A stretch of 50,263 bases of DNA from a virus, in IMG/VR virus record IMGVR_UViG_3300022594_000008, positions 1 through 50,263 of that record; one strand, given 5' to 3'. The stretch's first letter is position 1. Every line of letters begins with the position of its first letter. Below the pieces are notes generated by a model that made no database searches, was not told where the DNA came from, and saw nothing but the letters and a program-made list of their open reading frames with translations. Of this stretch, positions 11,824 through 50,263 are shown one piece after another. The position numbers were made by a program, and so were the translations under genes.

Positions 11824-11835
11824 AAACCCAAAACA

Positions 11836-11843
11836 GGTAAATA
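11836..11843 (+). promoter_or_regulatory. Late promoter box GGTAAATA
   Basis: GGTAAATA retains the TAAATA core, lies in the 120-nt gap after a fibre gene, and precedes a structured leader. The predicted transcript start is near 11849. Confidence 0.55.
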
Positions 11844-14073: not shown

Positions 14074-14077
14074 GATA

Positions 14078-14626: not shown

Positions 14627-14637
14627 GGAATAAGATT

Positions 14638-31900: not shown

Positions 31901-34900
31901 CGTTGCGGCAGGTACATTTATTGTAACTAACTTAACTGGTACCCCAACAAGTGCTTCTAGTACATGGACTGTTAACGTAAGTCAAACAGCTACTGGTGTT
32001 ACTGGAGCTACTCCAATTGTATTAACATTAAGCGGTACATTTACTAACACATTTGCTCCAGGTACAGTAATTTCTGGCGGTACAACAACTGCTGGTTCAT
32101 ACATTACTGCTCAAGCAACTGCAACAGCAGGTGCAGTAGCAACACAAAACTTTGCTTCAGGCGGTGCACCGGGTTCATCAACAGTTACACTAGCGGCTGG
32201 TACTAACTTTGCTCCAGGTCAATTGTTTGTTGGTACTGGTGTGTTTGCTAACACATTTATTACTAACGTAACAAGTGCTACAATTACATTAAGTCAGCCA
32301 TTCCACACACAAGCAAGTGGTTCTTACAACGGATATGCGGCAGGTATTGCAGGTACTTATAACGTAACTCCAACACAGTCGGTTACAAGTACAACAATTA
32401 CTGGTACAACTAATACAACAAACTCATCAACATTTGTTGCATTGACAAGTACAATTACTGGTACATTGAATGCTTATATTAGTGCTAACTTATCTGGTGC
32501 TGGTAACGGTTCAACATGGACTATTACAAGTGGTGCGGCAAGTACAACTGTTGCTTCAACAACAATAACAGGTACAAGTTTCACAGTTAATAATAGCCAA
32601 ACACAAACTGCCACAACAATTACTGGTACAAACAACCTAGTAACAGTTGGATCAACAACTGGTATGACAGTGGGCGAGCCAATTGTGTTTACTTCAGTTA
32701 TACAAAATACTACAGTTAGTGCTGTAGCAACAACTGGTAACTTAATTACTGTTGGAACAACAGCTGGTATGGTGGTAGGTGAACCAATTACATTTGGTGC
32801 AGTTACACAATCTGGTACATTAAGTGCCGCGGCAACAAGCGGTAACTTGTTTACTATTAGTTCAACTAGCGGTCTAGTAGTTGGAGAACGTATTGTGTTT
32901 ACAAGTGTAACACAAACACCAACATTAACAGCTACAACACACAACGCTTCTAGCTTAACCGGTTATATTGCTGGTACAACATTGACAGTTATGTTTGCTC
33001 CAACAGGTGCAGTAACAGCTGGTATGTTGTTATCAGGTGCAGTTACTACTGGCACATATATCACTGGCCAATTAACAGCTACAAACTCAGCGGCCGCAAC
33101 TACTACTTCAAGTACAGGTAGTGGAGTAAGCACTATTGTAGTTGCAAGTGCAACTGGTGTAGCGGCTAACCAATTGATTGCTGGTACAGGTATTCCTAAC
33201 GGAACATTTGTACGCAGTGATTATACTACTGGCACAACTATTAACTTGGTTGATATCAATAATGCTCCAGTGTTAACAACACAAGCATTAGGTAGCGTAT
33301 CATTCTACACACCAGGACAGCAAGGTACTTACACAGTAACTCCAAGTCAAACAAGTGGTAGTTCTGGTAGCCCAATATCAATGACTGGTACAGAAGATAC
33401 AATTACTTTAAGTTCTAATACAGGTATTGTTCTCGGTGAGTCATTCCAAGTTGGTACTAACGTAGGCGGATTGTTAAGTGCTTCTACATACTATGTAACT
33501 GAAATTATTGGTTCTACTAAGATTTCAGTAGGTACAACTAGCGGTGCAACAAGTAACTTTACAGTAACTACTACAACATCACAAAGCGTTGCTACAACAG
33601 CTGGCGCAGTGTTTGGCGGTATTACTTCAGGTACAACATATTACATTGCAAGTATTCCAACTCCAGGCACAAACGGAACAATTACATTGTTCACAGCCTA
33701 TGGTTCAGGTGCTGTAACAGTATCTGGCGCGGCAAAGGGTGCATGGACATTTGTAGCAGGCGCGGCGTTAGGTAACTTGAGTGCTGTTACAACTTACTAC
33801 ATTGCAAGTATTCCAACACCAGGCGCTGGCGGAACAATTACTGTAAGTTTAACTTACGGTGGATCTGCAATTGATCCAGGTAACGGTAACGGAGCTTGGA
33901 CAGCTCAAGCAGGCGCTACATTTGGTGGTATTACTTCAGGTACTTCATACTTTATTAGTGAAGTTGTAAGTAGTACGCAAGTCGCAATTACTGGTACATT
34001 TGTTGGTTCATTAGGTAGCAACCTATCATTAACTAATGCGGCCGGTAGCTGGACTGTAGTGGCTGGTGCATACTTAGGTAACTTAGTATCTGGTAACACA
34101 TACTATATTAAATCTATCAGCGGTAACCAAATCACTGTTAGTGCAATTAGCCCAACAGGTACAACATTTGCTCTAATCGATGACACTGGTTCTTGGACAA
34201 GTAAAACAGGTTCAGCAGTTTGCGCTACAAGTTGGGACGGTTTCAACTGGTATCCACAAACACTAGGTGCTTCTTCAGCATGGAGTGGCATTACATTCGG
34301 TAACCCAGCAAGTGCTACACTAGGAGCTCAACCACAATTTGTAACAGTATCTAAGACAACAGGAACAACAGCGGCCACAATACGTTCAGGTGCAAGACCA
34401 CTAGGACGTACTAAAGCAGTTGCAGGACTTGTATCAGAAATTAGAATGATTGAACCAGGTAGCGGATTTGGTAAAGGTAACGTAACTGCTACAACAGTTA
34501 CAACTAACGTAATAACAGTTGATGATATTACATTCCTAAGCACAAGTTTAGCTAATAATCAACCAATCGAGTTTAATGCAAGTTATGGTAACTTAACAAC
34601 TAATACAACATACTATGTAATTGGTTCAAGCGTTACCGCTGGTTCTGGTACAACTGGTACTTTCCAAGTAACAGCTAATGCAGGAAGTACAACTCCTGTG
34701 GCGTTGACAACAACAGTTCCAAGCGGTATGATATACAACGTTGGTCCAGTCGTAACAATTATGGATCCAAACCACGTTACAAACGTAGGAACTCGTGTAC
34801 GTATTAGCAACGGTGCTTTAGGTAACCCAAGCTTCACTAACCGTGGTACAAACAATAGCACTGCTACAGCAAGTACATTGGGCGATGGTTATAGTGATTT

Positions 34901-37035: not shown

Positions 37036-37875
37036 ATGGCAACATACGGAAGTTATAAACAAATTAAGACAGATCAGTTACAAAACGGATCTGTGGCTAC
37101 TGCTAACTTATGTTTAGGCGCCGGAATTGGAAATTGCACAACTTGGGTTTTTAACAACAGGGGCATGTGTTGTAATGCATGTTCCCAGTTTGGTTGTAAC
37201 GAACAAACAAACGGATGCTGTTGCTTGTGGACAGTCCCGGCTAACGTAAGTTGTGTAACATTTGAAATCTGGTCAGGCGGTGGTGGCGGAGCGGGTATGA
37301 TTTGTTGTAATTATTGCGGATTCTCGTGGGGAGGAGCCGGCGGTAATTATGCTATCAAAACTATTTCAGTATGTCCAGGTTGGCAATATACTGTTTGTGC
37401 AGGCGGAACATGGCCATGTAACCAGTCGCATACATGCGGAGCTGGTATGGGGTGTGCATCGTGGGTACAAGGATGTAATTTAAATAACTTCTGTGCTACT
37501 GGCGGATGCGGTGGCTATATGTGTGACGGCGATGCATGGGGTGGCCCAAGCGGTTATCACCATATGGGTTGTGCTAACTGTGCTGTTATGGGATTCTGTG
37601 GCGCTGACTTTGGCGTTATGGGAACTGTTGGAACACGTTTTGGTCAAACAATGTGTCGTTGTAACGGTGTTACTAACTGGGCGGGCCAAGCACCTTTCAT
37701 GGGCAAAATAGTTGTTACTTCAAGTTCAGAAACTTGGTGTACATGTGCTTGTTGGACTAACTGGCCAGCAGGCGGCGGCAATAGTGGAATTTCATCTTAT
37801 TGCGGTGACCACGCAAAACAATGCGCAGGTGGCGGCCCAGGCGGTAGTGGTATTGTTAAAATTACAATGAGTTAA
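37036..37875 (+). CDS. Gly/Cys-rich virion protein 1 of a tandem triplet
   Basis: A 279-aa protein with 32 Cys by my count, including CC and CCC clusters. It starts with a ~25-residue helix-like segment (MATYGSYKQIKTDQLQNGSV) shared by all three copies. The segment WTVPANVSCVTFEIWSGGGG (residues ~69-88) matches the Gly-rich domain common in phage fibre-tip proteins, here with Cys at many loop positions. The end GGSGIVKITMS is also typical. The regular Cys spacing suggests extensive disulphides or metal binding on the particle surface, a role that is inferred. AGGAAA ribosome-binding site. Confidence 0.7.
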   Translation: MATYGSYKQIKTDQLQNGSVATANLCLGAGIGNCTTWVFNNRGMCCNACSQFGCNEQTNGCCCLWTVPANVSCVTFEIWSGGGGGAGMICCNYCGFSWGGAGGNYAIKTISVCPGWQYTVCAGGTWPCNQSHTCGAGMGCASWVQGCNLNNFCATGGCGGYMCDGDAWGGPSGYHHMGCANCAVMGFCGADFGVMGTVGTRFGQTMCRCNGVTNWAGQAPFMGKIVVTSSSETWCTCACWTNWPAGGGNSGISSYCGDHAKQCAGGGPGGSGIVKITMS

Positions 37876-37878
37876 AAT

Positions 37879-38718
37879 ATGGCAACCTATTCAAGTTACA
37901 AACAGATTATTAATGACAATATTTCAAGCGGATCAGTTGCGTCTGGAAATTTACAGTGGAATGCAAGACCAAAACAAACTGTGTTTTGGGTATATAACAA
38001 CCGCGGGCTTTGCTGTAATGCTTGTGCAAACTACGGTTGTGCAGAACAGGCTAACGGATGTTGCTGTTATTGGGTAGTGCCAAACGGTGTTACTCGCGTA
38101 ACATTTGAATTGTGGTCAGGCGGCGGTGGAGGAGCAGGTGCAATTTGTTGTAACTATTGTACTTTTGCGGTTCACGGCCAAGGCGGAAATTATGCAATGG
38201 CATCTATTGCTACAGCACCAGGTTGCGGATATACAATATGTGCAGGCGGTTCGTGGCCTTGCACACAATCACATACTTGCGTAGCAGGTATGGGCTGTGT
38301 TACATACGTGTGCGGATATAATTTAAATAATTTATGTGCATATGGCGGTTGCGGTGGCTTAAACTGCGACGGTGATGCATGGGGTCTTTACTGTATGAAT
38401 AGTGGATGTGCAAACTGTAACATTTGCGGATTCTGGGGTGCAGACTTTGGTATTATGGGATCAAGTGCATTCCACTTAGGACACGGTGGATGTCACTGTT
38501 CAGGTGCAGACGGTATGATTTCCGGTGCGGCACCGTTTATTGGTAAAGTAGATATTACAAGTACAACAGAATCGTGGTGTAATTGCGGATGTTTTGTTAA
38601 CTGGCCAGCAGGCGGCGGCACAACCGGAAGCTCTAGTTATTGCGGAAACCACGCAAAAATGTGCGCAGGCGGAAGTGGACAAGGCGGAAGTGGTATTGTT
38701 AAAATTACCTACGCATAA
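37879..38718 (+). CDS. Gly/Cys-rich virion protein 2 of a tandem triplet
   Basis: A 279-aa paralogue of the preceding gene, with 30 Cys by my count and most positions conserved (NRGLCCNAC, NGCCCYW, AGGSWPCTQSHTC, NWPAGGG, GGSGIVKITYA). The segment WVVPNGVTRVTFELWSGGGG corresponds to the Gly-rich core. The middle (about residues 170-225) differs most between copies and may carry receptor specificity. The ATG lies 3 nt after the previous stop and has no clear Shine-Dalgarno, so translational coupling is likely. Confidence 0.7.
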   Translation: MATYSSYKQIINDNISSGSVASGNLQWNARPKQTVFWVYNNRGLCCNACANYGCAEQANGCCCYWVVPNGVTRVTFELWSGGGGGAGAICCNYCTFAVHGQGGNYAMASIATAPGCGYTICAGGSWPCTQSHTCVAGMGCVTYVCGYNLNNLCAYGGCGGLNCDGDAWGLYCMNSGCANCNICGFWGADFGIMGSSAFHLGHGGCHCSGADGMISGAAPFIGKVDITSTTESWCNCGCFVNWPAGGGTTGSSSYCGNHAKMCAGGSGQGGSGIVKITYA

Positions 38719-38728: not shown

Positions 38729-39577
38729 ATGGCAAGTTATGCAAGTTATAAAAAGATAATCAACGATAACCTTCCGGCAAACGTTGTTCCTGGTTCTGCT
38801 ATTCAGACAGGTGCAGGTGCGGCTTTTGGAGTACAGTGGATTTTCAACTACCGAGGAATGTGCTGTCAGAACTGCGCAAACGCAGGCGGATGCTGTGAGC
38901 AATCGAACGGATGTTGCTGTTATTGGACTGTACCTGCTAACGTAGGTTATGTAACATTTGAAATTTGGGGCGGTGGTGGCGGTGGCCCTGGCCAAACTTG
39001 CTGTAACTGCTGTTCGTTTGCAACAGGCGGCGCAGGTGGATCTTACGCAAGTCGTTCTATCTGTGTATGTCCAGGCTGGAACTATACTATTTGTGCTGGC
39101 GGTTCGTGGCCTTGCAACCAATCACATACTTGTGGTGCACCAGGTGGATGCGTAAGTTGGATTCAAGGATGTAATCTAAGCAATTTCTGCGTATATGGCG
39201 GATGTGGTGGCCTAATGTGTAACGGTGACGCATGGGGTTTATACTCAACAGCATACGGCTGTGCTAACTGTACAGCAGGTGGCGGATGTGCATGGTGGGG
39301 AGCAGACTTAGGTTTTGCAGGATCTATGGGATCTAACGTTGGTAACGGATACTGTCACTGTGCTCGTCAAGGTGGATTTACTGGAGCGGCACCTATTATT
39401 GGTAAGTTCCAAGGTGTAGCGAACCACGAAACATGGTGTGCTTGCGGTTGTTATGTTAACTGGCCAGCAGGCGGCGGAATGCCAGGGCGTTCTAGCTATT
39501 GCGGTGACCACGCAAAACAATGCGGCGGAGGCTCTGGACAGGGCGGAAGTGGTATTGTTAAAATAACTTATATGTAA
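38729..39577 (+). CDS. Gly/Cys-rich virion protein 3 of a tandem triplet
   Basis: A 282-aa third copy with 32 Cys by my count. It shares the N-terminal helix-like segment, the Gly-rich WTVPANVGYVTFEIWGGGGG core, the PGWNYTICAGGSWPCNQSHT block and the C-terminal GGSGIVKITYM. It has an extra GGCC insertion near residue 55 and a distinct variable region (about 170-225). AAGGAATAA ribosome-binding site. The three copies probably arose by tandem duplication and may form a hetero-trimer or alternative tips. Both ideas are inference. Confidence 0.7.
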   Translation: MASYASYKKIINDNLPANVVPGSAIQTGAGAAFGVQWIFNYRGMCCQNCANAGGCCEQSNGCCCYWTVPANVGYVTFEIWGGGGGGPGQTCCNCCSFATGGAGGSYASRSICVCPGWNYTICAGGSWPCNQSHTCGAPGGCVSWIQGCNLSNFCVYGGCGGLMCNGDAWGLYSTAYGCANCTAGGGCAWWGADLGFAGSMGSNVGNGYCHCARQGGFTGAAPIIGKFQGVANHETWCACGCYVNWPAGGGMPGRSSYCGDHAKQCGGGSGQGGSGIVKITYM

Positions 39578-39602: not shown

Positions 39603-40415
39603 ATGGCACAAGATATTCAACAAGGAAACGAGCAATGTACAGTACAATTTACATTCAGAATTCCTGATCAGTGGCGAGGAAATACATTTGATTTGGGATT
39701 AACTGGAACTTGGACTTATCACGGTCCACGTTGGTTAGCATTCCAATTTGACATGAATACAGGAAGAGAAGCAGGATGGTGCTTAGTTAGCGATCGCGAA
39801 CACGAGCGTCCTTTGGCATTAGATTGTGTTCGTGTATTAGTAGATGCAACAGCAAGTGACGAAAATGCACTTTTAGCTGAAATTTGCAACGACACAGGTA
39901 ATCGTGCTGAAGTAGATTTTAGAACATTACGTAAATGGCGTATTGCACACCAAGCACCTGAAGGTTATACTAGTTTAGAAGAGCCTGAAGAAGTATGCCC
40001 ACGTGATATCTACGACGAATTTAACGTTACATACGATTTTGAAACACATCATTTCAATATTCCGTTAAAAGATCTAGAACTAGAAGGCTGGAATTTTGAT
40101 ATCACTTGGGATGACATTAGAAAAATTCGTGATAGAATGTTATCTAGTACTGATAATAAACTTGCGGCAGATATGCCAGAATCTGCACAAGCTCCGTGGA
40201 GACGTTATCGCCAACTACTTCGCGATTTGCCACATGCTCTAAAAGATTTTCCACCAGCTATTGCGGCACACATGTTCCCAATTGAGCCATATGAAAAACC
40301 ATTAGGTGATCCAGGTGGTCCGGGTGCAGACAGAGAATCAACAGCAGGTATTCCAACTATTGAACCAGCGGTACGTGTTATGTATACTGGCGGAACTACT
40401 GCTCCAGGATATTAA
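39603..40415 (+). CDS. Tail-assembly-chaperone-like (Phage_tail_APC-type) protein
   Basis: A 270-aa, acidic, non-repetitive protein unlike the fibres around it. Residues ~170-215 (IRKIRDRMLSSTD, then APWRRYRQLLRDLP) match the tail-assembly-chaperone-type domain found at the end of many tail-fibre loci, in which R-D-x-x-L-x-x-x-D is followed by W-x-x-Y-R-x-x-L-R-D. The N-terminal half (residues ~10-150) is a separate, unrecognised domain with WTYHGPRWLAFQFD. The C-terminus is Gly/Pro-rich. Its position as last gene before a strong terminator fits a fibre-attachment or assembly helper. It may also be a structural adaptor. Confidence 0.6.
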   Translation: MAQDIQQGNEQCTVQFTFRIPDQWRGNTFDLGLTGTWTYHGPRWLAFQFDMNTGREAGWCLVSDREHERPLALDCVRVLVDATASDENALLAEICNDTGNRAEVDFRTLRKWRIAHQAPEGYTSLEEPEEVCPRDIYDEFNVTYDFETHHFNIPLKDLELEGWNFDITWDDIRKIRDRMLSSTDNKLAADMPESAQAPWRRYRQLLRDLPHALKDFPPAIAAHMFPIEPYEKPLGDPGGPGADRESTAGIPTIEPAVRVMYTGGTTAPGY

Positions 40416-40430
40416 TTTATCATACTAATA

Positions 40431-40459
40431 AAAACAGCACTTTGGTGCTGTTTTTTTTT
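40431..40459 (+). terminator. Strong rho-independent terminator ending the structural region
   Basis: A 10-bp stem AAAACAGCAC / GTGCTGTTTT with a TTTG loop is followed by further T residues to 40459. It separates structural genes from the accessory enzyme cluster. Confidence 0.95.
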
Positions 40460-40475: not shown

Positions 40476-40483
40476 TATAAATA
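40476..40483 (+). promoter_or_regulatory. Exact T4-type late promoter TATAAATA for the enzyme cluster
   Basis: An exact TATAAATA lies 16 nt after the terminator. With T4 spacing (box from -13 to -6) the transcript would begin at 40489, which is the A of the first gene's ATG, so the mRNA could be leaderless. Confidence 0.8.
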
Positions 40484-40488
40484 ATTCC

Positions 40489-41106
40489 ATGAGTATTGAT
40501 ATGATTAATCCGTTTCCGTGTTTTATTGGAGAAACAATTTTAGATATAGATGACGAAACGCATCGGGGTCTGTTTGAACTAGTAGATCAAATACGAGAAA
40601 AAATGACTACAGATTTAATTTCGTATTCATCTTATTTTCATATTCCTAGTGTACATAATGCAAACAAACATTATAGTGTACTTTCAGAAAAAATAACTTA
40701 TGCGGCTAACAAATATTATAGAACCTTAAAAAATATAGAAGAACCTATAGATACTTTGCGTATGCAACGTATGTGGATTAATGTTTTCAAACAACACGGG
40801 TACACTACATTTCACGATCATTGGGAATTGCCGTTTTCGTATACATTTTATTTAGACGATAGCGACACTCCTTTAAGATTTATGCACCCAAGTCAAATAA
40901 AAAGTACAAATTATCATTTTATAAAACCAAAACGTCACAAACTAGTTATTTGGCCTGGTTGGCTAATGCATGAAATTATGCCAAACAGAACTACAGATGA
41001 TAGGATATCTATAGCAGGAAAACTTAACTGGACACAGCATTGGTTAACACCAGACGGGAGACCTCATGACAATGATCCGTTAGATAAACCAAAAGATTTA
41101 TTATGA
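40489..41106 (+). CDS. 2OG-Fe(II) oxygenase-like protein (2OG-FeII_Oxy_5 type)
   Basis: A 205-aa protein with the layout of small 2-oxoglutarate/iron oxygenases: FHDHWELPFSYTFYLDD (residues ~108-124, with His109, His111 and Glu113) supplies the first metal ligands, His161 in WPGWLMHEIMPN is the distal ligand, and Arg172 in DDRISIAGKLNW probably binds 2-oxoglutarate. Such enzymes hydroxylate or otherwise oxidise protein, sugar or metabolite substrates. There is no Shine-Dalgarno before ATG 40489. An internal ATG at 40501 has a GAG 7 nt upstream and is an alternative start. The stop overlaps the next gene (ATGA), so the two are coupled. Confidence 0.7.
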   Translation: MSIDMINPFPCFIGETILDIDDETHRGLFELVDQIREKMTTDLISYSSYFHIPSVHNANKHYSVLSEKITYAANKYYRTLKNIEEPIDTLRMQRMWINVFKQHGYTTFHDHWELPFSYTFYLDDSDTPLRFMHPSQIKSTNYHFIKPKRHKLVIWPGWLMHEIMPNRTTDDRISIAGKLNWTQHWLTPDGRPHDNDPLDKPKDLL

Positions 41107-42329
41107 AAAAAAGTTTAGGTGTAATTGGGACAGGTAGTGCTGGCATTCTTACATTGGCACATTTTATTAATATATTAGGAAATGATTGGGACATCGTTTC
41201 GATACATAATCCTAATATCAATCCTATAGGTATAGGTGAAAGTACTAATCCTAGTTTTATGGAAACTATGGAATTAGGTCTAGATTTTAGCATGGTAGAT
41301 GATTTAAAACATTTAGATGCTACATTTAAATTTGCCACACGTTATAAAGAATGGAAAAGCGACTATGTAGATAGCCCATTAATTGCCGGCCGATGTGCTA
41401 TACATTTTAATACACACAAACTACGCAACTTTGCATTATCAAAATTTGCAAAATTATGGCCTGAAAAGTTTAAGGTACTCGAAGGTAATGTTGATAGCTT
41501 AGAAAATATTATATTTGGCCAAAATACCGTTAAAGATTCAGCTGTAAAAGTAGTAGTAGACGGAATTGCATATCAATTTGACTACATAATCGATTGTAGA
41601 GGATTTCCTAAAGACTATTCTGACTACACTATATGTAATATGCCAGTTAATCATGCCATTGTACATAATAAAATGATACCCGGCGACTGGAATTATACAG
41701 GACATCGGGCCACTTTACACGGCTGGATGTTTGAAATACCTTTACAAACTAGACAAAGTTACGGTTATTTGTTTAACGATACTATCAATACAGTAGAAGA
41801 AGCTAAAGATAATTTTAGTAAAGTAATTAATGTTCCAGTAGAAGAACTAGATAGCATAGAATATAAATTTAAAAGTTATTATTGCAACACTCCAGCTAAT
41901 GGCAGAATATATAAAAACGGAAACAGCTTTGGATTTTTTGAGCCTATGAGTGCTACCTCATTATGGATGTATAATTGTTTAAATTTAATCTACGAAAAAG
42001 AAATAATGGCCACCGAATTTGGCACGCCGCTACCTCAAGCTGAAACTAACAGATTAGCAATAGACCGTGCCCTAGCCGCCCAGGAATTAATTTGCTTTTT
42101 TTATCACGGCGGTAGTAATCATGATACTGAATTTTGGAATCGTGCCACAACCATTGCAAAGGATTTTCTTGCAAGCAGGAACTTTATTAAACAACTAACA
42201 GAAGTAATGTCGGAACCCGTAAAAAACGGTACACCTTTCACCAAATATTTGGCTTTACCGTTTGGTGCTAGGTCTCACTATTATTTTGATAAACGGTTTG
42301 GACATCATTATTTTACAGAGCCAGAATAA
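41103..42329 (+). CDS. Flavin-dependent halogenase-like protein 1, divergent active site
   Basis: A 408-aa member of the tryptophan-halogenase superfamily. The N-terminal FAD motif is GTGSAG (residues 9-14), GIGEST lies at 43-48, and Lys76 in ATFK aligns with the catalytic Lys79 of PrnA/RebH. GWMFEIP (207-213) corresponds to WxWxIP. At the position of the catalytic Glu-Ser pair (EPLEST in classical enzymes) this protein reads EPMSATS (280-286), so the Glu is Ser and the Ser is Ala. It is also shorter than usual (500+ aa). It may be a flavin monooxygenase, use a different halide or mechanism, or be a partner of the second halogenase. Confidence 0.75.
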   Translation: MKKSLGVIGTGSAGILTLAHFINILGNDWDIVSIHNPNINPIGIGESTNPSFMETMELGLDFSMVDDLKHLDATFKFATRYKEWKSDYVDSPLIAGRCAIHFNTHKLRNFALSKFAKLWPEKFKVLEGNVDSLENIIFGQNTVKDSAVKVVVDGIAYQFDYIIDCRGFPKDYSDYTICNMPVNHAIVHNKMIPGDWNYTGHRATLHGWMFEIPLQTRQSYGYLFNDTINTVEEAKDNFSKVINVPVEELDSIEYKFKSYYCNTPANGRIYKNGNSFGFFEPMSATSLWMYNCLNLIYEKEIMATEFGTPLPQAETNRLAIDRALAAQELICFFYHGGSNHDTEFWNRATTIAKDFLASRNFIKQLTEVMSEPVKNGTPFTKYLALPFGARSHYYFDKRFGHHYFTEPE

Positions 42330-42350
42330 CTTGTTGCCTCCAAAATCTGC

Positions 42351-42358
42351 TATAAATA
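42351..42358 (+). promoter_or_regulatory. Exact T4-type late promoter TATAAATA upstream of the GT gene
   Basis: TATAAATATCTT lies in the 79-nt gap before the glycosyltransferase gene; the TAAATATCTT string is shared with the box at 2124. Start expected near 42364, giving a ~45-nt leader. Confidence 0.8.
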
Positions 42359-42408
42359 TCTTGCTATTTTAAATGTAAGATGTTATAGTAGTACAATAGG
42401 AGATCAAA

Positions 42409-43488
42409 TTGTCAAGACCAAAAGCATATTTTATGAACGGTGGCACAGGCCGTGTTATCTGTTCAATTCCAGCCTTTGAAAAGCTGTTAGAAACTGAAGA
42501 AGATTTTATTATTGTGTGTGAAGGCGGTACAGACATGTACAAAGGCCATCCAGAACTACACAAACGAGTCTATGACAATTGGCACAAGGGATTATTTCAA
42601 CAATTCTTAAAAGATAGAGACATTGTTACGCCTGAACCATATCGTGTTTGGGAATATTATAATCAAAAATGCAGTCTTGCACAAGCATTTGACATCGCCA
42701 TCAATAATAAGGGCATTCGTGATTTGCCTAAACCTACTATAAGATTAAACAAAGTTGAAATGACCAATGGATATAACATTGTTCAAGAAGTAAAATCTAA
42801 AACAGGCTTTGACAAAGCAATCGTAATTCAGCCGTTTGGTCGCGGCATTCAAAGACAAGGCGAAATGGTTATCGATCCTAGCAGTCGTAGTATGCATTTA
42901 AACAATGTCATTGAAATTATTAACGAACTTAAAAAAGAATATGCTGTAATTTTAATGAACGAGTTTCCTATTGTATTAGAAGAAAACGACACGGGCAAAT
43001 ATCCAATAGCACAACCACAAATACCAGACATTCGTACATGGGCCGCGGTTATTGATGTTGCGGATCATTTCTTAGGTGTAGATAGTGTAGGACAACATAT
43101 TGTAAAAGCAATGGGTAAAACTGCAACTGTAATCTGCGGTGCAACTTATCCTATTAATATTTCATATCCTAACAATCCTGATTTTGACATCATTGATTTA
43201 GGCAAGGAAGATCGTGTGTATGATCCAATTCGCTTAACTATGGAAGAAGAAGTTAATCGTGCAAATGATGAAGTTATGGAAATGGACAAATTTCAAATAC
43301 AAGAAGTATTAAAATCTGTACGTAAGCGTCTAGGTAAGTCTACAAGATTCAAAGGAAAATTTGTAGCACCACAACAAGACGCATCTTGCTGTGCAGTAGA
43401 AGGACAGACACAACCAACAGCACCAACACAACCGGTATTTTCAACATCTGGTGGTGCATTAAAACTTGAAAATTCAGGAGTAAAATAA
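42409..43488 (+). CDS. GT9/heptosyltransferase-like glycosyltransferase
   Basis: A 359-aa protein with GT9-like features: an N-terminal GGTGRVICSIPAFEKL (11-26) resembling the Gly-rich acceptor loop of heptosyltransferases, and a C-terminal FLGVDSVGQHIVKAMGK (221-237), the D-S-x-x-x-H signature that contacts the sugar nucleotide. The last ~40 residues are a Pro/Thr/Gln-rich tail with a CC pair. The start is TTG at 42409, 6 nt after a strong AGGAG; the first in-frame ATG is 8 codons later and has no ribosome-binding site. The stop overlaps the carbamoyltransferase start (TAATG). Likely transfers a sugar to a glycan or protein; donor and acceptor are unknown. Confidence 0.65.
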   Translation: MSRPKAYFMNGGTGRVICSIPAFEKLLETEEDFIIVCEGGTDMYKGHPELHKRVYDNWHKGLFQQFLKDRDIVTPEPYRVWEYYNQKCSLAQAFDIAINNKGIRDLPKPTIRLNKVEMTNGYNIVQEVKSKTGFDKAIVIQPFGRGIQRQGEMVIDPSSRSMHLNNVIEIINELKKEYAVILMNEFPIVLEENDTGKYPIAQPQIPDIRTWAAVIDVADHFLGVDSVGQHIVKAMGKTATVICGATYPINISYPNNPDFDIIDLGKEDRVYDPIRLTMEEEVNRANDEVMEMDKFQIQEVLKSVRKRLGKSTRFKGKFVAPQQDASCCAVEGQTQPTAPTQPVFSTSGGALKLENSGVK

Positions 43489-45299
43489 TGAGTCAATGGA
43501 TTGCCGCAATAACTCGCGGACACAACGGCGGAGTATGTTTATTAAAAGACGGCGAAATTGTATTTGCCATTGAAGAAGAACGTCTAAGTCGTAAAAAATA
43601 CGACGGTGGTCCATTTGCATCGATGGTTAAAATCTTGGATTACACTGATAAATTAGACTATCTTGTAATTGCACATACACAACCACTACAAGAAACTGCT
43701 GGTAAAGTAGATTTTACAGGCGACGATGTATATACTGGCCTTGCACGTAAGTTAGGTCTTATCGAACGTAACGTTAATACACGCGAACATCCACAAGTTA
43801 TTGACCTAAGTGTAATGCATCATAAGTTACACGCGGCTTGTGCGTTTTATCGTTCAGGTTTTGAAGATGCAGTTAGTGTTGTTATCGACGGCGCTGGCAC
43901 ATTTATTCCAATGCAATTTGATGGCAACCAAGAAATGACATGGGAATTAGAAAGTATCTTTACATGTCGTTACCCAGCAAACTTTACAACATTGTATAAA
44001 CACCAAGGCGGTCGCGGGCCATGGGGCGGTGCATTGATTAGTGACATGCCATCTACGTTATACGGCGAAGAAGGCACACACGAATTAGCTATCGATGACA
44101 GTGCAGGTATTACAAAAGCATACGAAGCAGTTACACAATACTGTGGCTGGAGCCCAATCGAAGCAGGAAAGACAATGGGCTTGTTCCCGTACGGCGAACC
44201 TAACGATAAAATTCCTCCAATCTATAGTGACGGCAACGGTGGCAAATGGCGTACAACTGATCGCAATTTAATTATTCCAACATATCCAAATGGCGCACAA
44301 GTAAATGCTGGACGTTATGCTGAATTAGATACAGATTATGAAGTATTAAAAGAAATAGAAGATGTTACTACACTACAAAACCGTAGAGATATGGCCTACG
44401 CTGTACAAACACAAAGCCAAGAAGAAGCACTACGTGTTATTCTCAAAGCAGTTGAAATGTCAGGCATCAAAAATGTAGTATTTTCAGGCGGATACGGATT
44501 AAACTGTGTTGCTAACTATTTCTATCTTACAAAATTAAACGAACTAGGTATTAATTTTTATGCAGAACCTATCAGTAATGATGCAGGTACATGTATTGGC
44601 GCGGCATTACTAGTACATCATAAAATGAATGAAGACGATCGAGTGCGTCCTTATGCAGACAGTTTATATTTAGGTCCTGCATATTCTTATACTGACGAAG
44701 AAATTAACAAAACAGTTAACAAGTATAATGCTAAAATTACAAAAGCCACGCACGAAGATATTGTTAAGTTGTTGCGTGAAAAGAATATTGTTACAATGTT
44801 CCAAGGCCGTAGCGAAAGCGGCCCACGTGCGCTAGGAAATAGATCAATTTTGTTTGATCCTACATTCCCAGATGGTAAAGACTTTGTTAACGTGGTTAAA
44901 CGCCGTGAATATTTCCGTCCTTTTGCCGGTAGTATCCTAGCAGAACACGCACACGAATGGTTTGACATGCGCGGCAAAGAAGAAACCCCGCATATGATGT
45001 ATGCTATGAATTGTCAGCCTGGTATCGCTGAAAAGATTCCTAGTATCATTCACGTCGACGGTACTTGTCGTATACAAACAGTTAAGCGTGAGCAGAATCC
45101 GCACTACTATGATTTAATTACCGAGTTTTATAAAGTAAGCGGAATGCCTATCTTGTTTAATACAAGTTTTAATCTAGGCGGTGAACCACTAGTCGAAACA
45201 TTAGATGATGCAGTACGTACACTTGCTAACAGCTTGATGGAATATTTGTATTTGCCAGAATACGGATACTTAATCGAGGTTAAAAATGTCGATGATTAA
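43488..45299 (+). CDS. NodU/CmcH/TobZ-type O-carbamoyltransferase
   Basis: A 603-aa, full-length member of the carbamoyltransferase family, which makes carbamoyl-adenylate from carbamoyl phosphate and ATP and moves the carbamoyl group to a hydroxyl, often on a sugar. Visible motifs: RGHNGGVCLL (10-19) and EEERLSRKKYDGG (29-41); H111-x3-H115 in MHHKLHAACAF (metal ligands in TobZ-like domains); VIDGAG near 132; SGGYGLNCVANYFY near 328; and the C-terminal domain with QGRSESGPRALGNRSIL, KRREYFRPFAGSIL and NTSFNLGGEPLVET. Strong AGGAG ribosome-binding site and a one-base overlap with the GT gene suggest the two act on the same product. Confidence 0.9.
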   Translation: MSQWIAAITRGHNGGVCLLKDGEIVFAIEEERLSRKKYDGGPFASMVKILDYTDKLDYLVIAHTQPLQETAGKVDFTGDDVYTGLARKLGLIERNVNTREHPQVIDLSVMHHKLHAACAFYRSGFEDAVSVVIDGAGTFIPMQFDGNQEMTWELESIFTCRYPANFTTLYKHQGGRGPWGGALISDMPSTLYGEEGTHELAIDDSAGITKAYEAVTQYCGWSPIEAGKTMGLFPYGEPNDKIPPIYSDGNGGKWRTTDRNLIIPTYPNGAQVNAGRYAELDTDYEVLKEIEDVTTLQNRRDMAYAVQTQSQEEALRVILKAVEMSGIKNVVFSGGYGLNCVANYFYLTKLNELGINFYAEPISNDAGTCIGAALLVHHKMNEDDRVRPYADSLYLGPAYSYTDEEINKTVNKYNAKITKATHEDIVKLLREKNIVTMFQGRSESGPRALGNRSILFDPTFPDGKDFVNVVKRREYFRPFAGSILAEHAHEWFDMRGKEETPHMMYAMNCQPGIAEKIPSIIHVDGTCRIQTVKREQNPHYYDLITEFYKVSGMPILFNTSFNLGGEPLVETLDDAVRTLANSLMEYLYLPEYGYLIEVKNVDD

Positions 45300-45999
45300 G
45301 AAATTTATTGACGAAAAAGAAGTATTTGCCATAAATGATCAAATCGAATGGGCCGTTCATGAAATAGGTCCAGGTAAATCTAAAGTTATTGTATGTGATA
45401 ATTTTTATAAAAATCCAGATATGGTTCGAGAATTAGCACTATCTATTCCTCCTAGTGTTAATGAACGTATTGCTAGTAATTTACCAGTTGGTCCGGATAG
45501 CGGCCGTATTAATGCATTTTATATGTTTGATCATTTCGCCACTCCTATCGAAGAAATGTTTAAACAATCATTGCCTGAGATATACGAAAAAGCTCCAACT
45601 GGTTATTTTCAACAGTCGTTTTTAAACGCTACATTTCTAGTTAATGTTATGACTGGAAAAAATCTGCCGCCTCGTGTTCCGCATTGTGATGCACCGCATC
45701 CGTATTTGTATGCGGCTGTAATTTTTCTAAACACACCAGAAGAATGCCAAGGCGGTACAGCATTTTATACATTTGGTGGTAATCATAAAGGCAATGCTAA
45801 TACTATGGATGTCGAAGGCAAAATTCCAATGGATCACTATGTTACAGACAGTGAAGAAGATTGGGAAATGCTCAAACTAGTTGAAATGAAGTACAACAGA
45901 TTTGTAATGTATCCGCAATGGCAATATCACACAGCATATATTAAACCTGATATGTTTGTAGACGGCACATATAGAATTAATCAATGTTTTTTCATATGA
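45286..45999 (+). CDS. DUF6445-like putative 2OG/Fe oxygenase
   Basis: A 237-aa protein resembling the DUF6445 family. HCDAPHPYLYAAVIFLN (133-149) gives an H-x-D pair, GGTAFYTFGG follows at 157-166, His215 lies in WQYHTAY and Arg230 in YRINQCFF. That is the H-x-D...H...R pattern of double-stranded beta-helix oxygenases. To my knowledge DUF6445-type genes often sit beside tryptophan-halogenase genes in bacterial clusters, which fits this locus. The start overlaps the preceding gene by 14 nt with GAGG 6 nt upstream; the end overlaps the next gene (ATGA). Confidence 0.7.
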   Translation: MSMIKKFIDEKEVFAINDQIEWAVHEIGPGKSKVIVCDNFYKNPDMVRELALSIPPSVNERIASNLPVGPDSGRINAFYMFDHFATPIEEMFKQSLPEIYEKAPTGYFQQSFLNATFLVNVMTGKNLPPRVPHCDAPHPYLYAAVIFLNTPEECQGGTAFYTFGGNHKGNANTMDVEGKIPMDHYVTDSEEDWEMLKLVEMKYNRFVMYPQWQYHTAYIKPDMFVDGTYRINQCFFI

Positions 46000-46772
46000 C
46001 TGAAATTGATTTTAATCATTTAAAGTCTTTTTTTGATCCCGAACGATGGGATATCGGCCTGCTGGACGGTTTTGAGACTGTACAATGTTGTTTACAACCT
46101 AATAGAATGCAAAAATCTGCGCCGTACGGAGTTGCATATGATGCCGGATCTCGAGAATTAATAGAATCCGAAACTCATCATACTCTTGTAATTATTAGAA
46201 AAGCAGATTACAGTCAAGATTATGCCATGTTAAACTACGAATCTCGTAAAATCATGACTGAGATATTTGGCGAAGATGATGTATCCTGGACTAACCCTTA
46301 CATAGATTTAACCGTGCCTGTGGTAAATTCTATATGGTATACCATTTGGCTTAATAGTAAGGCCGCGGCTATCACTGCTAACTTAGGTGTAAGAGCTAAA
46401 AATAGTATGGTACATACTTACAAATTTGGTTTTCATGCTAAGATAGCAACTTACGGAATACGTATTCCTATTACAAATTATGAAAGAAATCAAAAAAAAT
46501 CTGATTTGTTAGATGCTTGTTTAACTTGTAATTTATGTGTGGATAGATGTCCTGTAAAAGCAATACATCCGGAGCCTCCCTTTCCGTTTATTGATTTGTT
46601 TGCATGCCATGATCAGCTGGCAAAAACTAGTCGTAAAAATTGGAAGCACGATTTAGAATATAGCAACACAGGAAAATTAGTGTCTCCTTTAGAAAAAGGA
46701 TACAATATGTGTAATATATGCCAAACACAAGAACCGTGCAATACAAATATTATTAAGGAATTAATTAAATGA
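45996..46772 (+). CDS. Two-cluster 4Fe-4S protein, QueG/reductive-dehalogenase-like
   Basis: A 258-aa protein from the ATG that overlaps the previous stop (ATGA). Cys175, 178, 181 and 185 form C-x2-C-x2-C-x3-C-P; Cys204, 239, 242 and 248 complete eight ligands for two [4Fe-4S] clusters. The segment before the clusters (SKAAAITANLGVRAKNSM, about 121-138, then YKFGFHAKIATYGIRIP) resembles the part of epoxyqueuosine reductase and reductive dehalogenases that lies between cobalamin and clusters. Those enzymes are usually longer (350+ aa), and the N-terminal cobalamin domain is short or altered here. It may pass electrons to the flavin halogenase or act as a reductase itself; this is inference. 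An upstream in-frame ATG at 45984 is less likely. Confidence 0.65.
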   Translation: MTEIDFNHLKSFFDPERWDIGLLDGFETVQCCLQPNRMQKSAPYGVAYDAGSRELIESETHHTLVIIRKADYSQDYAMLNYESRKIMTEIFGEDDVSWTNPYIDLTVPVVNSIWYTIWLNSKAAAITANLGVRAKNSMVHTYKFGFHAKIATYGIRIPITNYERNQKKSDLLDACLTCNLCVDRCPVKAIHPEPPFPFIDLFACHDQLAKTSRKNWKHDLEYSNTGKLVSPLEKGYNMCNICQTQEPCNTNIIKELIK

Positions 46773-48253
46773 AAATTATAATTGTAGGTGGAGGAAGCAG
46801 TGCATGGTTATCTGCGTCCTACTTATTAAACAATGTTCCGAAGGTAGAAATTACCGTTATTGACAAAGAAGTAGGTAATCCTGTCGGAGTGGGCGAAGCA
46901 ACTATACTTAATTTTGGCACTTTTATGGAAGAGTGCGGATTTGCTAAAGCAGAATGGCTTTATGAATTAGATGCTACATTAAAAACAGGCATTATGTTTC
47001 CAGGCTGGGGCACAACGGATAATGAAGTATGGCATCCTTTTCAGACTAATGTAACATATCCTGATAGTAGCAGTTTAGATGTATGGGCACAACAACAAGA
47101 TTTACCCTTTAAACGATATGCTACCACAAATTATGATGCGGCTACTAGTAGATTAATCGATTTTACAGCACCTGATCAACGATTTGGATATCATGTAGAT
47201 TGTGGTAAGATGGTTGTTTATATTCAAAAGAAAATAAAAAGTTTTGTAACCTGTATTAATTCGGCAGTTACAGAAGTTATTAAAGATGATGAAGGTAATA
47301 TTAACAAACTAGTATTAAACAACGGCGAAGAACATACAGCAGATTTATATATAGATTGCACCGGATTTATTAGTTTATTAAAAGAACAAAAGTTTGTTGA
47401 CATAACCGGTAGATTATTCTGCGATACCGCAATAGCATGTCGCATTGATTTTGAAGACAAAACAACAGAAATGCTTCCCTATGTAATAAGCGAAGCAGTA
47501 GAGCATGGATGGATATGGAAAATTCCTACACGTAGTCGTATTGGCTCTGGTTTAGTCTTTAACAGAAATATAACTCCTATCGAAGAAGCAAAACAATATC
47601 TGGCCGACCACTGGAATGGCAGAGTTAAAGTTGAAGATATGAAAGTCATTGACTGGACTCCTAGATATTGTAGTAACATGTGGCAAGGTAACATAGTTAG
47701 TGTTGGACTAAGTGCAGGGTTTATCGAGCCTTTAGAAAGTACTGGATTATTTTTAATACAAATGGGTATCAAACTATTAGCAGAAAAGATTAAATTAAGT
47801 TTTTACGATACTGCAAATATTAATTTATACAATTCACAAATGACAAAATATTTTGAAGACGGTATAGATTTTGTCGGCATGCATTATGCAAATACAGAGC
47901 GTACTGAACCTTTTTGGCAGTATGTTAAAGAAACATTCAAAGAATCTGTGCTACAACAGCATTATAGGATGATAATGCTTGATCCAAATGTAACATTTGT
48001 CGATGTATGTAAACCAAACTTAACAAATAATACAATCTTTAATCCTATTAACTGGTTTATATGGCTCGCCCAACTTGGATATCCTGTAAATAAATCTGCA
48101 TTTCATTTGCACCCTGATAGAATTAAGTTTCTTATAAAAGTATTTGAACGCAACGAACAAGTCAGAGTCTTAAGAAGCATACCGCATAAAGATGCGCTTG
48201 ATGTTATCCTGTTAGAAGGTATGAATAACGGCTATGTCCCAAGCGAAATTTAA
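46769..48253 (+). CDS. Flavin-dependent halogenase-like protein 2, canonical active-site motifs
   Basis: A 494-aa protein close to the usual size of tryptophan-halogenase-type enzymes (about 510-540 aa). It has GGGSSAW (7-13, FAD binding), GVGEAT (40-45), Lys72 in ATLKTGIMFPGW (PrnA Lys79 equivalent), WIWKIP (248-253) and EPLESTG (320-326) with the catalytic Glu323-Ser324 pair. The family uses FADH2, O2 and halide to make HOX, which Lys carries to the substrate. Viral members exist (for example the iodinating VirX1 of a cyanophage). The start overlaps the Fe-S gene by 4 nt (ATGA). The substrate is unknown; Trp, another aromatic or a protein residue are possible. Confidence 0.85.
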   Translation: MKIIIVGGGSSAWLSASYLLNNVPKVEITVIDKEVGNPVGVGEATILNFGTFMEECGFAKAEWLYELDATLKTGIMFPGWGTTDNEVWHPFQTNVTYPDSSSLDVWAQQQDLPFKRYATTNYDAATSRLIDFTAPDQRFGYHVDCGKMVVYIQKKIKSFVTCINSAVTEVIKDDEGNINKLVLNNGEEHTADLYIDCTGFISLLKEQKFVDITGRLFCDTAIACRIDFEDKTTEMLPYVISEAVEHGWIWKIPTRSRIGSGLVFNRNITPIEEAKQYLADHWNGRVKVEDMKVIDWTPRYCSNMWQGNIVSVGLSAGFIEPLESTGLFLIQMGIKLLAEKIKLSFYDTANINLYNSQMTKYFEDGIDFVGMHYANTERTEPFWQYVKETFKESVLQQHYRMIMLDPNVTFVDVCKPNLTNNTIFNPINWFIWLAQLGYPVNKSAFHLHPDRIKFLIKVFERNEQVRVLRSIPHKDALDVILLEGMNNGYVPSEI

Positions 48254-48809
48254 AATAACTATTGGTCTTGATAGGGACGGTACTATAAACGAAGATCGAG
48301 GATACATTGGTCATCCTGATGCGTTTGTGCCTATTGACAAAAGTTTAGAAGCCGTAGCACAAATACGTGCTAAGGGTTACAATATTGTTGTATTAACTAA
48401 CCAAGCAGGCATTAGTAAAGGATTAATGACACCAGACGACGTTGATAGAGTAAATCAGCGTATGTTAGAAATGTTAGGCGAAGCAGGTTGCCCTAGCATT
48501 GACGGTATTTACTACAGTACAACTAGCATGAAACAAGACATTTATGCTAAACCTAATGTTGGCATGTTTCAACGTGCTGAAAAAGAAACAGGTGTTAAAT
48601 TTAAAGGCGGTGCTTACGTTGGCGATAAGATGAGCGATTTAAAAGCCGCTATGAAAATGGGTGCAACTCCTGTATTAGTAAGAACAGGGCATGGACTTGA
48701 AACAGAACAAGATTTAAACAAATACGCTTATCGAGAAATTAAAAAGAAAGTTGCTATCTTTGATAATTTGTGGGCGTTTGCATCAGCACTACCATATAAC
48801 GAGGAATAA
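48234..48809 (+). CDS. HAD-IIIA sugar-phosphate phosphatase, GmhB-like but without Zn loop
   Basis: A 191-aa protein, the length of E. coli GmhB. HAD motifs are D13-R-D15-GTIN (nucleophile and acid/base), T55-NQAG, Lys106 in YAKPNVGM, and GD131KMSD135. GmhB removes the C7 phosphate of heptose bisphosphate. The Cys/His Zn-binding loop of GmhB and HisB-N (C-x-H...C-x-C before RKP) is absent: the region reads STTSMKQDIYAKP. The exact sugar phosphate is therefore uncertain. It overlaps the halogenase gene by 20 nt. With the GT9-like gene it suggests nucleotide-heptose or related sugar chemistry. Confidence 0.8.
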   Translation: MSQAKFKITIGLDRDGTINEDRGYIGHPDAFVPIDKSLEAVAQIRAKGYNIVVLTNQAGISKGLMTPDDVDRVNQRMLEMLGEAGCPSIDGIYYSTTSMKQDIYAKPNVGMFQRAEKETGVKFKGGAYVGDKMSDLKAAMKMGATPVLVRTGHGLETEQDLNKYAYREIKKKVAIFDNLWAFASALPYNEE

Positions 48810-48811
48810 TC

Positions 48812-49459
48812 ATGGGACCAGAAGGCAGTAATTTAAAGTTTTCAGAAAACTTTCAAGATTGGTTTGTACTACAAGAAACTGGTTTTAAATCCGATGGATT
48901 CTTTGTTGACATCGGTGCAGGTGACGGCATAACTGCTAGTAATACATACTTGTTAGAGAAATTTTACAAGTGGGGCGGTATATGCGTTGATCCTAACCCG
49001 TTTTTTACACAAACATTGGCTGGTGTTAGAAATAGTTTTTCTAGTACGCTATGCGTACACGAAGAAACTGGTAAAATATTGCCTTTTAAGTTCAATGCCA
49101 ATGAAGAATTGTTTTATGGTTGGAATTTTAGAGCGGGCTTGACACAACATTTAGATCAAATCGATCCAAAAATTGATCAATATTTTGTAACAATTAATGT
49201 TCTTACAATTTCACTAAGTGATTTACTTAAATTATATCACGCTCCTAAACTTATAGACTATCTAAGTCTAGATACAGAAGGTAGTGAATATTCAATACTT
49301 AAAGATTTTGATTTTAACGAGTATGACATTAGTTGTATTACTGTAGAACATTCTTTTACAGAAGATAGAGAAAAGATATACGATCTATTAGTGGCTAATG
49401 GATATCGTCGTGTAGAAGAACAGCGTAGCGGCAACGAAGATTGGTATTTGCGTAAATGA
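48812..49459 (+). CDS. FkbM-type SAM-dependent methyltransferase
   Basis: A 215-aa FkbM-family O-methyltransferase. The SAM motif is FFVDIGAGDGITASN (30-44), the acidic residue after the second strand is Asp60 in ICVDPNPFF, and the family hallmark LSLDTEGSEYSIL lies at 151-163. FkbM enzymes methylate hydroxyls of polyketides and sugars. GAGGAAT ribosome-binding site, 2 nt after the phosphatase gene; its stop overlaps the next start (ATGA). It probably caps the sugar made or transferred by this cluster. Confidence 0.85.
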   Translation: MGPEGSNLKFSENFQDWFVLQETGFKSDGFFVDIGAGDGITASNTYLLEKFYKWGGICVDPNPFFTQTLAGVRNSFSSTLCVHEETGKILPFKFNANEELFYGWNFRAGLTQHLDQIDPKIDQYFVTINVLTISLSDLLKLYHAPKLIDYLSLDTEGSEYSILKDFDFNEYDISCITVEHSFTEDREKIYDLLVANGYRRVEEQRSGNEDWYLRK

Positions 49460-50263
49460 GTAAAACATTGTTCTTAGGAGATAGCCACAGTCAGGGCTAT
49501 TGGACTGAACAAGTGATGTACTTGAATTATCCTCATGTTTGGCAAAATAATAATTACGCTGAAATTTATGCCAATCTTAATAACAAACACAGTATCATAT
49601 ATGCTATGAGCGGCGCTACTATTCAGCGTTATCCTGATTGGCTTAAAATAGCACTAGACAAATATTCAGATATTGACGAAGTATTTGTACAAGCACTACA
49701 TTGGAACCGTTTTATGTTAAGCGGATCTAGCATTAAAGATTTTACTGCTGATGTACCACTCGATTATTTCATGCAAATCCATAGTAGTAATGATTTAGTT
49801 ACACGTATTTCAGATGTACCTGAAGATATGGCCAACAAAGAAGGAATCAATCGTGATCATGAATTTTATCCTTCTAAAATTTCAGGTGAAGATTACGAAA
49901 GTTTAAAAGATATTCCTGCAAAGTGGCGCCCTAATTTACAAAAAGAACCCTATATCAAAGTTAAATTGTGGAGTGAGTTAATGACACACTTGCAACATCG
50001 CGAGTATTGTCGTACATTATTCTTAATGGATCGGTTGTGCAAGGAACGAAGTATTAAAATGTACTTGTGGCGTGTGAACGACCGGGTGTATATTCCAGAT
50101 AATATAAATGTATACGGAGAATTAACATCTACTGTTAAGATAGAAAAGTCTGCTGAAACATATCTAAAAGAAATTGGGTTTGATATTTCACAAATGTTAA
50201 TGCCCGACAACGAACACTATACGTTAGACGGGCATTTAGAAATAGCACACAAATTCCTACCTT
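49456..50263 (+). CDS. SGNH/GDSL-like hydrolase, cut by the window end
   Basis: Open from an ATG overlapping the FkbM stop (ATGA) through the last base, at least 269 codons with no stop. LFLGDSHSQGY (residues 5-15) is a block I GDS-type nucleophile motif with Ser10. DNEHYTLDGHLEIAHKF near the end resembles the block V Asp/His region, though alignment of the exact D-x-x-H is uncertain. In glycan clusters SGNH proteins add or remove acetyl groups or act as esterases. The central ~200 residues are unusual and unrecognised. As the protein is truncated here, length and C-terminus are unknown. Confidence 0.6.
   Translation, partial: MSKTLFLGDSHSQGYWTEQVMYLNYPHVWQNNNYAEIYANLNNKHSIIYAMSGATIQRYPDWLKIALDKYSDIDEVFVQALHWNRFMLSGSSIKDFTADVPLDYFMQIHSSNDLVTRISDVPEDMANKEGINRDHEFYPSKISGEDYESLKDIPAKWRPNLQKEPYIKVKLWSELMTHLQHREYCRTLFLMDRLCKERSIKMYLWRVNDRVYIPDNINVYGELTSTVKIEKSAETYLKEIGFDISQMLMPDNEHYTLDGHLEIAHKFLP

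Follow-up and report, generated by a model that had tools for sequence, protein, structure and literature searches.

Tailoring genes, halogenases among them, are known from several phages. For phage S-SSM6a, the available part of the account of Iyer et al. (2021; PMC7824862) reports a cluster with a halogenase, carbamoyltransferases, a methylase, 2-oxoglutarate (2OG) oxygenases and HAD phosphatases, and proposes for it a halogenated metabolite or the decoration of a capsule. Sullivan et al. (2010; PMC3037559) and a 2010 review (PMC2984593) list, in their accessible parts, halogenase and lipopolysaccharide (LPS) genes. The roles that reviews give to viral halogenases in nature, PMC2984593 included as far as its text is accessible, are speculative only. 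Here we analyse a stretch of 50,263 nt from a large phage of marine type (IMG/VR record IMGVR_UViG_3300022594_000008, hereafter the window), in which ten plus-strand open reading frames at 40489–50263, ORF1 to ORF10, form a tailoring cluster behind genes for cysteine-rich fibre tips. A first-pass annotation of the window had noted no described phage locus that combines these functions. That claim does not hold, as the S-SSM6a cluster, in the available part of its description (PMC7824862), combines them and S-SSM7 has such a cluster at the same place. The enzyme combination is not new; its context behind Cys-rich fibre tips is.

The clusters of S-SSM6a and S-SSM7 lie in the same slot as that of the window, between the fibre tips and gp13/gp14. 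The window, read together with contig L004, which continues past its end, has its cluster between fibre tips and neck genes just as S-SSM7 does, and a neck-type gene of the window's clade is present in contig L097. The glycosyltransferase family 9 (GT9) enzyme and the carbamoyltransferase of these phages are 58.7% and 69.4% identical to those of the window, and a halogenase, 2OG oxygenases, DUF6445 and a methyltransferase are common to both. Unlike S-SSM6a and S-SSM7, the window has no HemK-like methylase, cupin, GmhA, PfkB kinase or nucleotidyltransferase beside the GT9 gene (the HemK-like methylase and the cupin are found neither among the ten genes nor downstream in L004), and it has extra RdhA/QueG-like, FkbM, SGNH and GmhB-like genes as well as HalA. 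The available part of the published S-SSM6a account makes no mention of a link to adhesins.

Other systems share parts of this arrangement. The fibre-side 'LPS' cluster of P-SSM2, S-CAM1 and S-CAM3 also has Cys-rich adhesins followed by GT9, carbamoyltransferase and heptose-type genes, but it has no halogenase. In Syn9 and Syn10, the latter the source of VirX1, genes for halogenases and numerous 2OG oxygenases come after those for Gly-rich fibre-tip proteins, whereas no GT9 or carbamoyltransferase is annotated in the stretch examined and the tips are not Cys-rich. The TibC/TibA heptosylation system (PMC4358343), of the bacterial autotransporter heptosyltransferase (BAHT) type, resembles the window in that a GT9-fold enzyme adjoins an adhesin, and ADP-heptose genes occur in relatives of the window phage; the phage enzyme differs in having no conserved four-Cys iron finger, and its candidate substrate is a Gly-rich tip, not a beta-helix. 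The halogenases of ribosomally synthesised and post-translationally modified peptides, such as SrpI, are likewise flavin halogenases that act on peptide side chains, but no leader-peptide system was recognised in the window cluster, where a peptide substrate is only proposed. A literature search of partial coverage found no paper on a cyanophage carbamoyltransferase with heptose or on a cysteine-rich tail fibre; nor were the linkage to Cys-rich tips, the heptosyltransferase fold or the placement of VirX1 found in the parts of the earlier literature that it covered.

Adhesin genes and the cluster behind them

The location of the cluster behind fibre tips is well supported. Three paralogous adhesin genes lie directly upstream of it on the plus strand, at 37036–37875, 37879–38718 and 38729–39577. 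Their products contain about 11% cysteine (11.5%, 10.8% and 11.3%, respectively) and 19–22% glycine, and are assigned to fibre tips by composition together with phrog_4205 and alignments (paralogues 1 and 3) or an AlphaFold model (paralogue 2). A tail-fibre assembly chaperone gene follows at 39603–40415 on the same strand (PF16778 Phage_tail_APC, 8.7e-10; phrog_4912; phrog_4697). The model of paralogue 2, with a mean predicted local distance difference test (pLDDT) score of 73.7, matches the fibre of cyanophage Pam3 (Z 17.6), the tail tip of Bxb1 (Z 12.0) and also the glycine-rich domain of ALK/LTK. In Pam3, the Gly-rich domain of the fibre has been assigned to receptor recognition (PMC9608196). 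With a Gly-rich fold and an adjoining chaperone gene, the window adhesins are of the Pam3 gp24 / S16 gp38 type.

The association between these adhesins and the cluster is conserved. When viral contigs were scanned for the GT9 protein, at least 577 relatives came up; the analysis used the best 80, which dereplication reduced to 58. A Cys-rich ORF was present within 5 kb upstream of the GT9 gene in 41 of the 42 dereplicated contigs with enough upstream sequence, whereas none of 569 other ORFs was Cys-rich. The carbamoyltransferase lay downstream of the GT9 gene in 51 of 52. In the 43 contigs with 9 kb of downstream sequence, the GT9 gene was followed by a halogenase (34), a recognised 2OG oxygenase (34), DUF6445 (32), an SGNH-like gene (25), a HAD phosphatase (24) and heptose-type genes (14–17). 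Phage records gave the same picture: the adhesin was found in 21 of 50,697, and GT9 was matched in all the viruses concerned, with adhesin and GT9 on separate contigs in the single-cell virus AG-345-E02. Two more phage records with a full-length GT9 have Cys-rich ORFs adjoining it. Because several of these records come from isolates of a single species, the association represents about ten lineages. The order adhesin, GT9, carbamoyltransferase is kept across proteins that are only about 40% identical. The genes thus occur together in related phages and are not scattered, in line with the first-pass annotation, which had named scattering as evidence against its reading.

All ten consecutive genes proposed earlier are present, and seven of their nine junctions overlap, by 4, 1, 14, 16, 4, 20 and 4 nt. 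The two other junctions are a 2-nt gap and a 79-nt gap, the latter preceding the GT9 gene. A terminator-like hairpin with a T run (40430–40455, plus strand) separates the fibre chaperone gene from the cluster, and the T4-type late promoter TATAAATA stands before ORF1 at 40476–40483, as the first-pass annotation had noted. A second copy, which it did not mention, lies in the 79-nt gap at 42351–42358 (plus strand), 58 nt before the GT9 gene. These are the only plus-strand copies in the window, the other strand has none, and both are intergenic, although intergenic DNA makes up only 892 of the 50,263 bases (1.8%). The raw count of TATAAATA is below the mean of dinucleotide shuffles; the promoter argument therefore rests on position and strand rather than on number. 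Three more sites of the form NATAAATA (1810, 22961 and 39576) each lie 12–27 nt before a gene start, among others those of the giant fibre gene and the fibre chaperone gene. In the dereplicated set of 58 relatives, the sense strand has 24 copies of CTATAAATA against about 9–11 expected, and the antisense strand has none against about 11 expected. Part of the relatives also have a late-type promoter at a similar place ahead of the GT9 gene. Sigma-70-like promoters are no commoner in the cluster region than in shuffles. Late expression with the fibre genes and tailoring tied to the particle, as suggested in the first pass, are supported by these promoters and by a strong and conserved association with fibre-tip genes.

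Enzymes of the cluster

ORF3 (42409–43488, +) encodes a heptosyltransferase-like glycosyltransferase (phrog_8954, 6.7e-148). Its sequence match to GT9 is very weak (PF01075, 10.9 bits, below the Pfam gathering score of 22), and a GT9 profile search of PDB sequences gave no real match, so that it is placed in GT9 by fold comparison only. A model with a mean pLDDT of 84.8, built from 44 viral homologues, has the GT9 structure 3tov as its top match (Z 22.0, 3.7 Å over 278 residues; Foldseek 4.7e-9), followed by WaaF (Z 19.8) and by TibC and WaaC (Z 18.4). The GT9-like subunit of plant NDH-PSI complexes also matches (Z 17.5–18.6), whereas the first fold class outside the GT9 group, the UDP-GlcNAc 2-epimerases, reaches Z 11.8. 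By its predicted structure, ORF3 has a GT9 fold. TibC moves heptose from ADP-heptose onto an adhesin (PMC4358343). Membership of ORF3 in the BAHT (TibC) family was rejected because the four-Cys iron finger is not conserved; C88 is the sole invariant cysteine among the 44 homologues. Distant matches in Vibrio and Aeromonas phages have 27.7–29.1% identity, and the relatives at 27.7% occur in 31 Vibrio phage records (e.g., OZ195742, 9478–10134).

Genes for heptose synthesis accompany the cluster in related viruses. The L037 and L027 viruses, whose portal is 63% identical to that of the window phage, carry on their contigs a fused HldE (8.7e-106), an HldD-like epimerase (4.1e-65) and a cupin next to the neck genes, along with two further halogenases and a NUDIX protein. 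ORF8 (48234–48809, +) is a GmhB-like HAD phosphatase (PRK08942, 5.9e-40; TIGR00213, 1.5e-25; both below the curated cut-off). Given the HldE, HldD-like and GmhB-like genes in relatives, ADP-heptose is the likely donor of ORF3. In two relatives of the window phage a second tailoring block lies beside gp13/gp14 (L097, 3764–9741; L098, 6253–12160), with a NUDIX gene, two halogenases, a fused HldE, an HldD-like epimerase and a WbuC-like cupin.

The gene after GT9, ORF4 (43488–45299, +), encodes an O-carbamoyltransferase of the NodU/TobZ type (phrog_1601, 1.1e-168; PDB 7xb6, 9.8e-57). Both its N- and C-terminal Pfam domains are above cut-off (PF02543, 9e-25, 88.3 bits; PF16861, 2e-58, 197.2 bits).

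Two genes encode putative 2OG oxygenases. ORF1 (40489–41106, +) belongs to the 2OG-Fe(II) oxygenases by profile (2OG-FeII_Oxy_5, PF13759, 3.7e-13; phrog_81, 3.6e-28; TIGR02466 above cut-off). ORF5 (45286–45999, +) is a DUF6445 protein (PF20043, 8.4e-16) in which H133, D135, H215 and R230 are invariant across the 25 sequences of a conservation alignment. A facial triad plus an arginine is the usual pattern of 2OG oxygenases, and the H133xD135...H215...R230 set of ORF5 matches it. The PHROGs label of ORF5 is 'minor coat protein'. This label, like 'DNA endonuclease V' and 'ferrochelatase', recurs in such clusters (window 45286–45999; S-SSM7 SSSM7_119, 124 and 134), and the proteins that bear these names appear to be 2OG-oxygenase-like, with wrong names inherited.

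Of the two halogenase-family proteins, ORF7 (HalB; 46769–48253, +; PF04820, 1.4e-86) has all catalytic motifs: GGGSSAW for GxGxxG, ATLKTGI with the catalytic lysine, WIWKIP for WxWxIP and EPLES with the catalytic glutamate. PrnA, RebH and VirX1 are its relatives, and it is predicted to be a full tryptophan-halogenase-type enzyme. ORF2 (HalA; 41103–42329, +; PF04820, 1.3e-29) has WMFEIP in place of WxWxIP and, as does its counterpart in contig L017, PMSA where working halogenases carry PLES. Halogenation by HalA is doubtful because this replacement removes the catalytic glutamate.

Halogenases also stand beside fibre genes in other phages. VirX1, whose structure has been solved, corresponds to CPUG_00131 in cyanophage Syn10. 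There, its gene is the third after a fibre-tip-like gene and is followed by a series of genes, some of whose counterparts in Syn9 carry a 2OG-oxygenase annotation. The layout is similar in S-WAM1, P-TIM40 and Sf-FP1. The halogenases of Syn9 are also beside fibre-tip or fibre genes, and that of S-SRM01 has a fibre gene on one side and an adhesin-tip gene on the other. As the Syn9 tips are Gly-rich but not Cys-rich (0.8–2.5% Cys) and Syn9 is not among the GT9 matches, two linked sets are visible: GT9 and carbamoyltransferase with Cys-rich tips, and halogenase and 2OG oxygenases with Gly-rich tips generally.

ORF6 (45984–46772, +) is a small RdhA/QueG-like protein (TIGR02486, 3.2e-5; PDB 5d08, 0.0022; 8q4h, 0.0027). 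It resembles both reductive dehalogenase and epoxyqueuosine reductase, below the NCBIfam cut-off in each case (TIGR02486, reductive dehalogenase, 23.9 versus 160.35 bits; TIGR00276, 19.8 versus 200). A CxxCxxCxxxCP motif (C179, C182, C185, C189) and a second four-Cys set (C208, C243, C246, C252) provide candidate ligands for two 4Fe-4S clusters. The earlier picture of a two-cluster Fe-S protein is borne out by these two sets, with the correction that ORF6 belongs to a small RdhA/QueG-like family and is no plain ferredoxin, in view of TIGR02486, the PDB matches and a bacterial homologue. Within one sampled phylum, bacterial genomes encode homologues similar in length to ORF6 (30% identity over 210 residues, E 2e-25). 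This bacterial family of about 277 amino acids (L105, 6960–7793; L100; L101) has a C-terminal CxxCQxQxxC motif and matches no named family above cut-off, and the neighbours of the L105 gene give no functional hint. The search of viral contigs returned only an identical copy, and phage records gave one weak match (28.8%), on an unannotated record of 1486 bp. The single match in genome contigs (L096) lies in a chemotaxis-type locus and was rejected as a local match due to chance.

ORF9 (48812–49459, +) encodes an FkbM-type methyltransferase (PF05050, 8e-17). L017, a near relative with nearly the whole cluster, has neither ORF6 nor ORF9; these two genes therefore look like recent gains, or losses in L017, rather than core parts. 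ORF10 (49456–50263, +), cut by the window end, is complete in L004 with 281 amino acids. It is weakly SGNH-like (PF13472, 0.0086, below the Pfam cut-off), and G8, S10, D251 and H254, invariant in eight homologues, may be catalytic residues. Past the window end, L004 carries three minus-strand genes (11687–14885) ahead of structural genes: another SGNH-like gene, the third halogenase, HalC, with the motifs EPLEA and WMFTIP, and a NUDIX gene.

The first-pass annotation had named most of these families. Profile searches moved none of the key proteins to unrelated ones and confirmed the carbamoyltransferase, the HAD phosphatase and the FkbM methyltransferase. Both 2OG oxygenases also stand, ORF1 by profile and ORF5 by its conserved residues. 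For the two halogenases the family was right, although ORF2 has lost its glutamate; the GT9 proposal holds by fold but hardly by sequence, and the SGNH proposal holds only as a match below cut-off.

Fibre tip, host surface or small molecule

Gene order, families, folds, promoter motifs and conserved association are observed directly. From them we infer the substrate, the late timing and every reaction, and we consider it somewhat probable that the cluster is a late, fibre-linked tailoring module whose enzymes add heptose and carbamoyl groups to the fibre tip and also hydroxylate and halogenate it. The host's enzymes and the GmhB-like phosphatase of the phage would together make ADP-heptose or a closely related compound. 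The GT9 enzyme would put a heptose-type sugar onto the Cys- and Gly-rich adhesins encoded immediately upstream, as TibC does with its adhesin, and the carbamoyltransferase, the methyltransferase and perhaps the SGNH protein would decorate that sugar. Before assembly, the 2OG oxygenases would hydroxylate side chains of the same fibre tip and the flavin halogenases would halogenate its Trp/Tyr side chains. This class of flavin halogenase works on aromatic rings rich in electrons, which makes a glycan an improbable direct target. By analogy, peptidyl tryptophan, rather than a glycan, can be the target: SrpI is a known peptide brominase, and peptidyl halogenation by the flavin halogenase class is known (PMC10858898).

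Several observations weigh against the fibre tip as substrate. L091, the exception among the contigs, carries both GT9 and carbamoyltransferase yet no Cys-rich adhesin. The module is free of halogenase in P-SSM2, S-CAM1, S-CAM3 and Sf-FS3, which makes halogenation an accessory step, and S-B64, S-MbCM6, Syn1 and Campylobacter phage CP21 have halogenases that do not adjoin fibre genes. Adhesin tryptophan differs little between loci with a halogenase (3.56%) and those without (3.0%), and a higher tryptophan content in halogenase-bearing loci was dropped as an argument because the difference is too small to use. Receptor masking would likewise couple the cluster genes to the adhesin. In L091 (8176–11125), the order of carbamoyltransferase and GT9 is reversed, and this pair may work on another substrate.

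The main rival, which we regard as rather unlikely, is that the enzymes alter the surface polysaccharide (LPS) of the infected host, either masking the receptor against superinfection or preventing progeny from binding to debris. The GT9 enzymes WaaC and WaaF, both among the fold matches of ORF3, build the LPS core with ADP-heptose, and masking of the adhesin's own receptor predicts much of the same adhesin linkage. Such genes of P-SSM2 and S-SSM7 are annotated as LPS genes in the accessible parts of PMC3037559 and PMC2984593, and superinfection exclusion has been proposed in the available part of PMC7824862. However, the promoter motif is of the late class that also precedes the fibre and chaperone genes. 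Among the ten genes no flippase, polymerase or acyltransferase was seen, nor any membrane segment, although heptosyltransferases of LPS do not themselves require any of these. In established chemistry, flavin halogenases act on aromatic rings, which LPS sugars do not have. As the target, the fibre is somewhat more probable than a host-surface polymer.

It is improbable that the cluster makes a halogenated, carbamoylated amino-acid or sugar small molecule, an antibiotic or toxin that aids the infected cell in competition. Such a product is proposed for S-SSM6a in the available part of Iyer et al. (2021; PMC7824862), and carbamoyltransferases and tryptophan halogenases are known from antibiotic pathways, but profile searches of the cluster found no enzyme that would build a scaffold, no carrier protein and no exporter. 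A small molecule predicts neither late-type promoters nor a strict linkage to fibre tips, and versions without a halogenase are still linked to the adhesin. Most improbable is loosely selected cargo that has collected in a slot of variable content flanked by fibre and neck genes, its shared place due to recombination and not to joint function: gene content does vary, with the FeS and FkbM genes missing in L017, and 'Stuffer DNA' is raised in the accessible part of Sullivan et al. (2010; PMC3037559), but active-site residues are kept in the HalB/HalC/HalS halogenases, DUF6445 and the HAD families, and the adhesin–GT9–carbamoyltransferase order persists at the low protein identity given above.

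We put forward tentatively the wider idea that marine phages possess a protein-maturation line, yielding fibre adhesins that are heptosylated, carbamoylated, hydroxylated and halogenated on Trp/Tyr. Halogenases are frequent in marine phages, and many of them, VirX1 included, recurrently follow fibre-tip genes, which gives a concrete candidate substrate. If the fibre tip is modified as proposed, the natural substrate of VirX1-type halogenases would be the phage's own fibre tip and not a free metabolite, and phages would mature their receptor-binding proteins with carbon–halogen bonds and their own glycans. This would matter for host range, for adsorption and for escape from recognition by hosts or grazers, and would suggest that the names 'LPS' and 'secondary metabolite' given to some phage genes in this slot need revision.

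Other genes of the window

A giant gene at 22986–35699 (+), preceded by GATAAATA at 22961, encodes a Thr/Ser/Gly-rich tail-fibre-like protein of 4237 amino acids, whose fibre role is suggested by its position. The portal gene (63–1814; T4 gp20 family) has its nearest isolates in the jumbo phages Atu_ph07 and XbC2 (47–48%) and not in cyanophages, and psbA was not found in seven of eight relatives' contigs tested, many of them fragments. The same kind of cluster occurs on contigs as long as 262 kb whose portal is 63% identical to that of the window. A protein of 709 amino acids (11944–14073) has a Laminin_G_3 (concanavalin-like) domain and is possibly another carbohydrate-binding virion protein.

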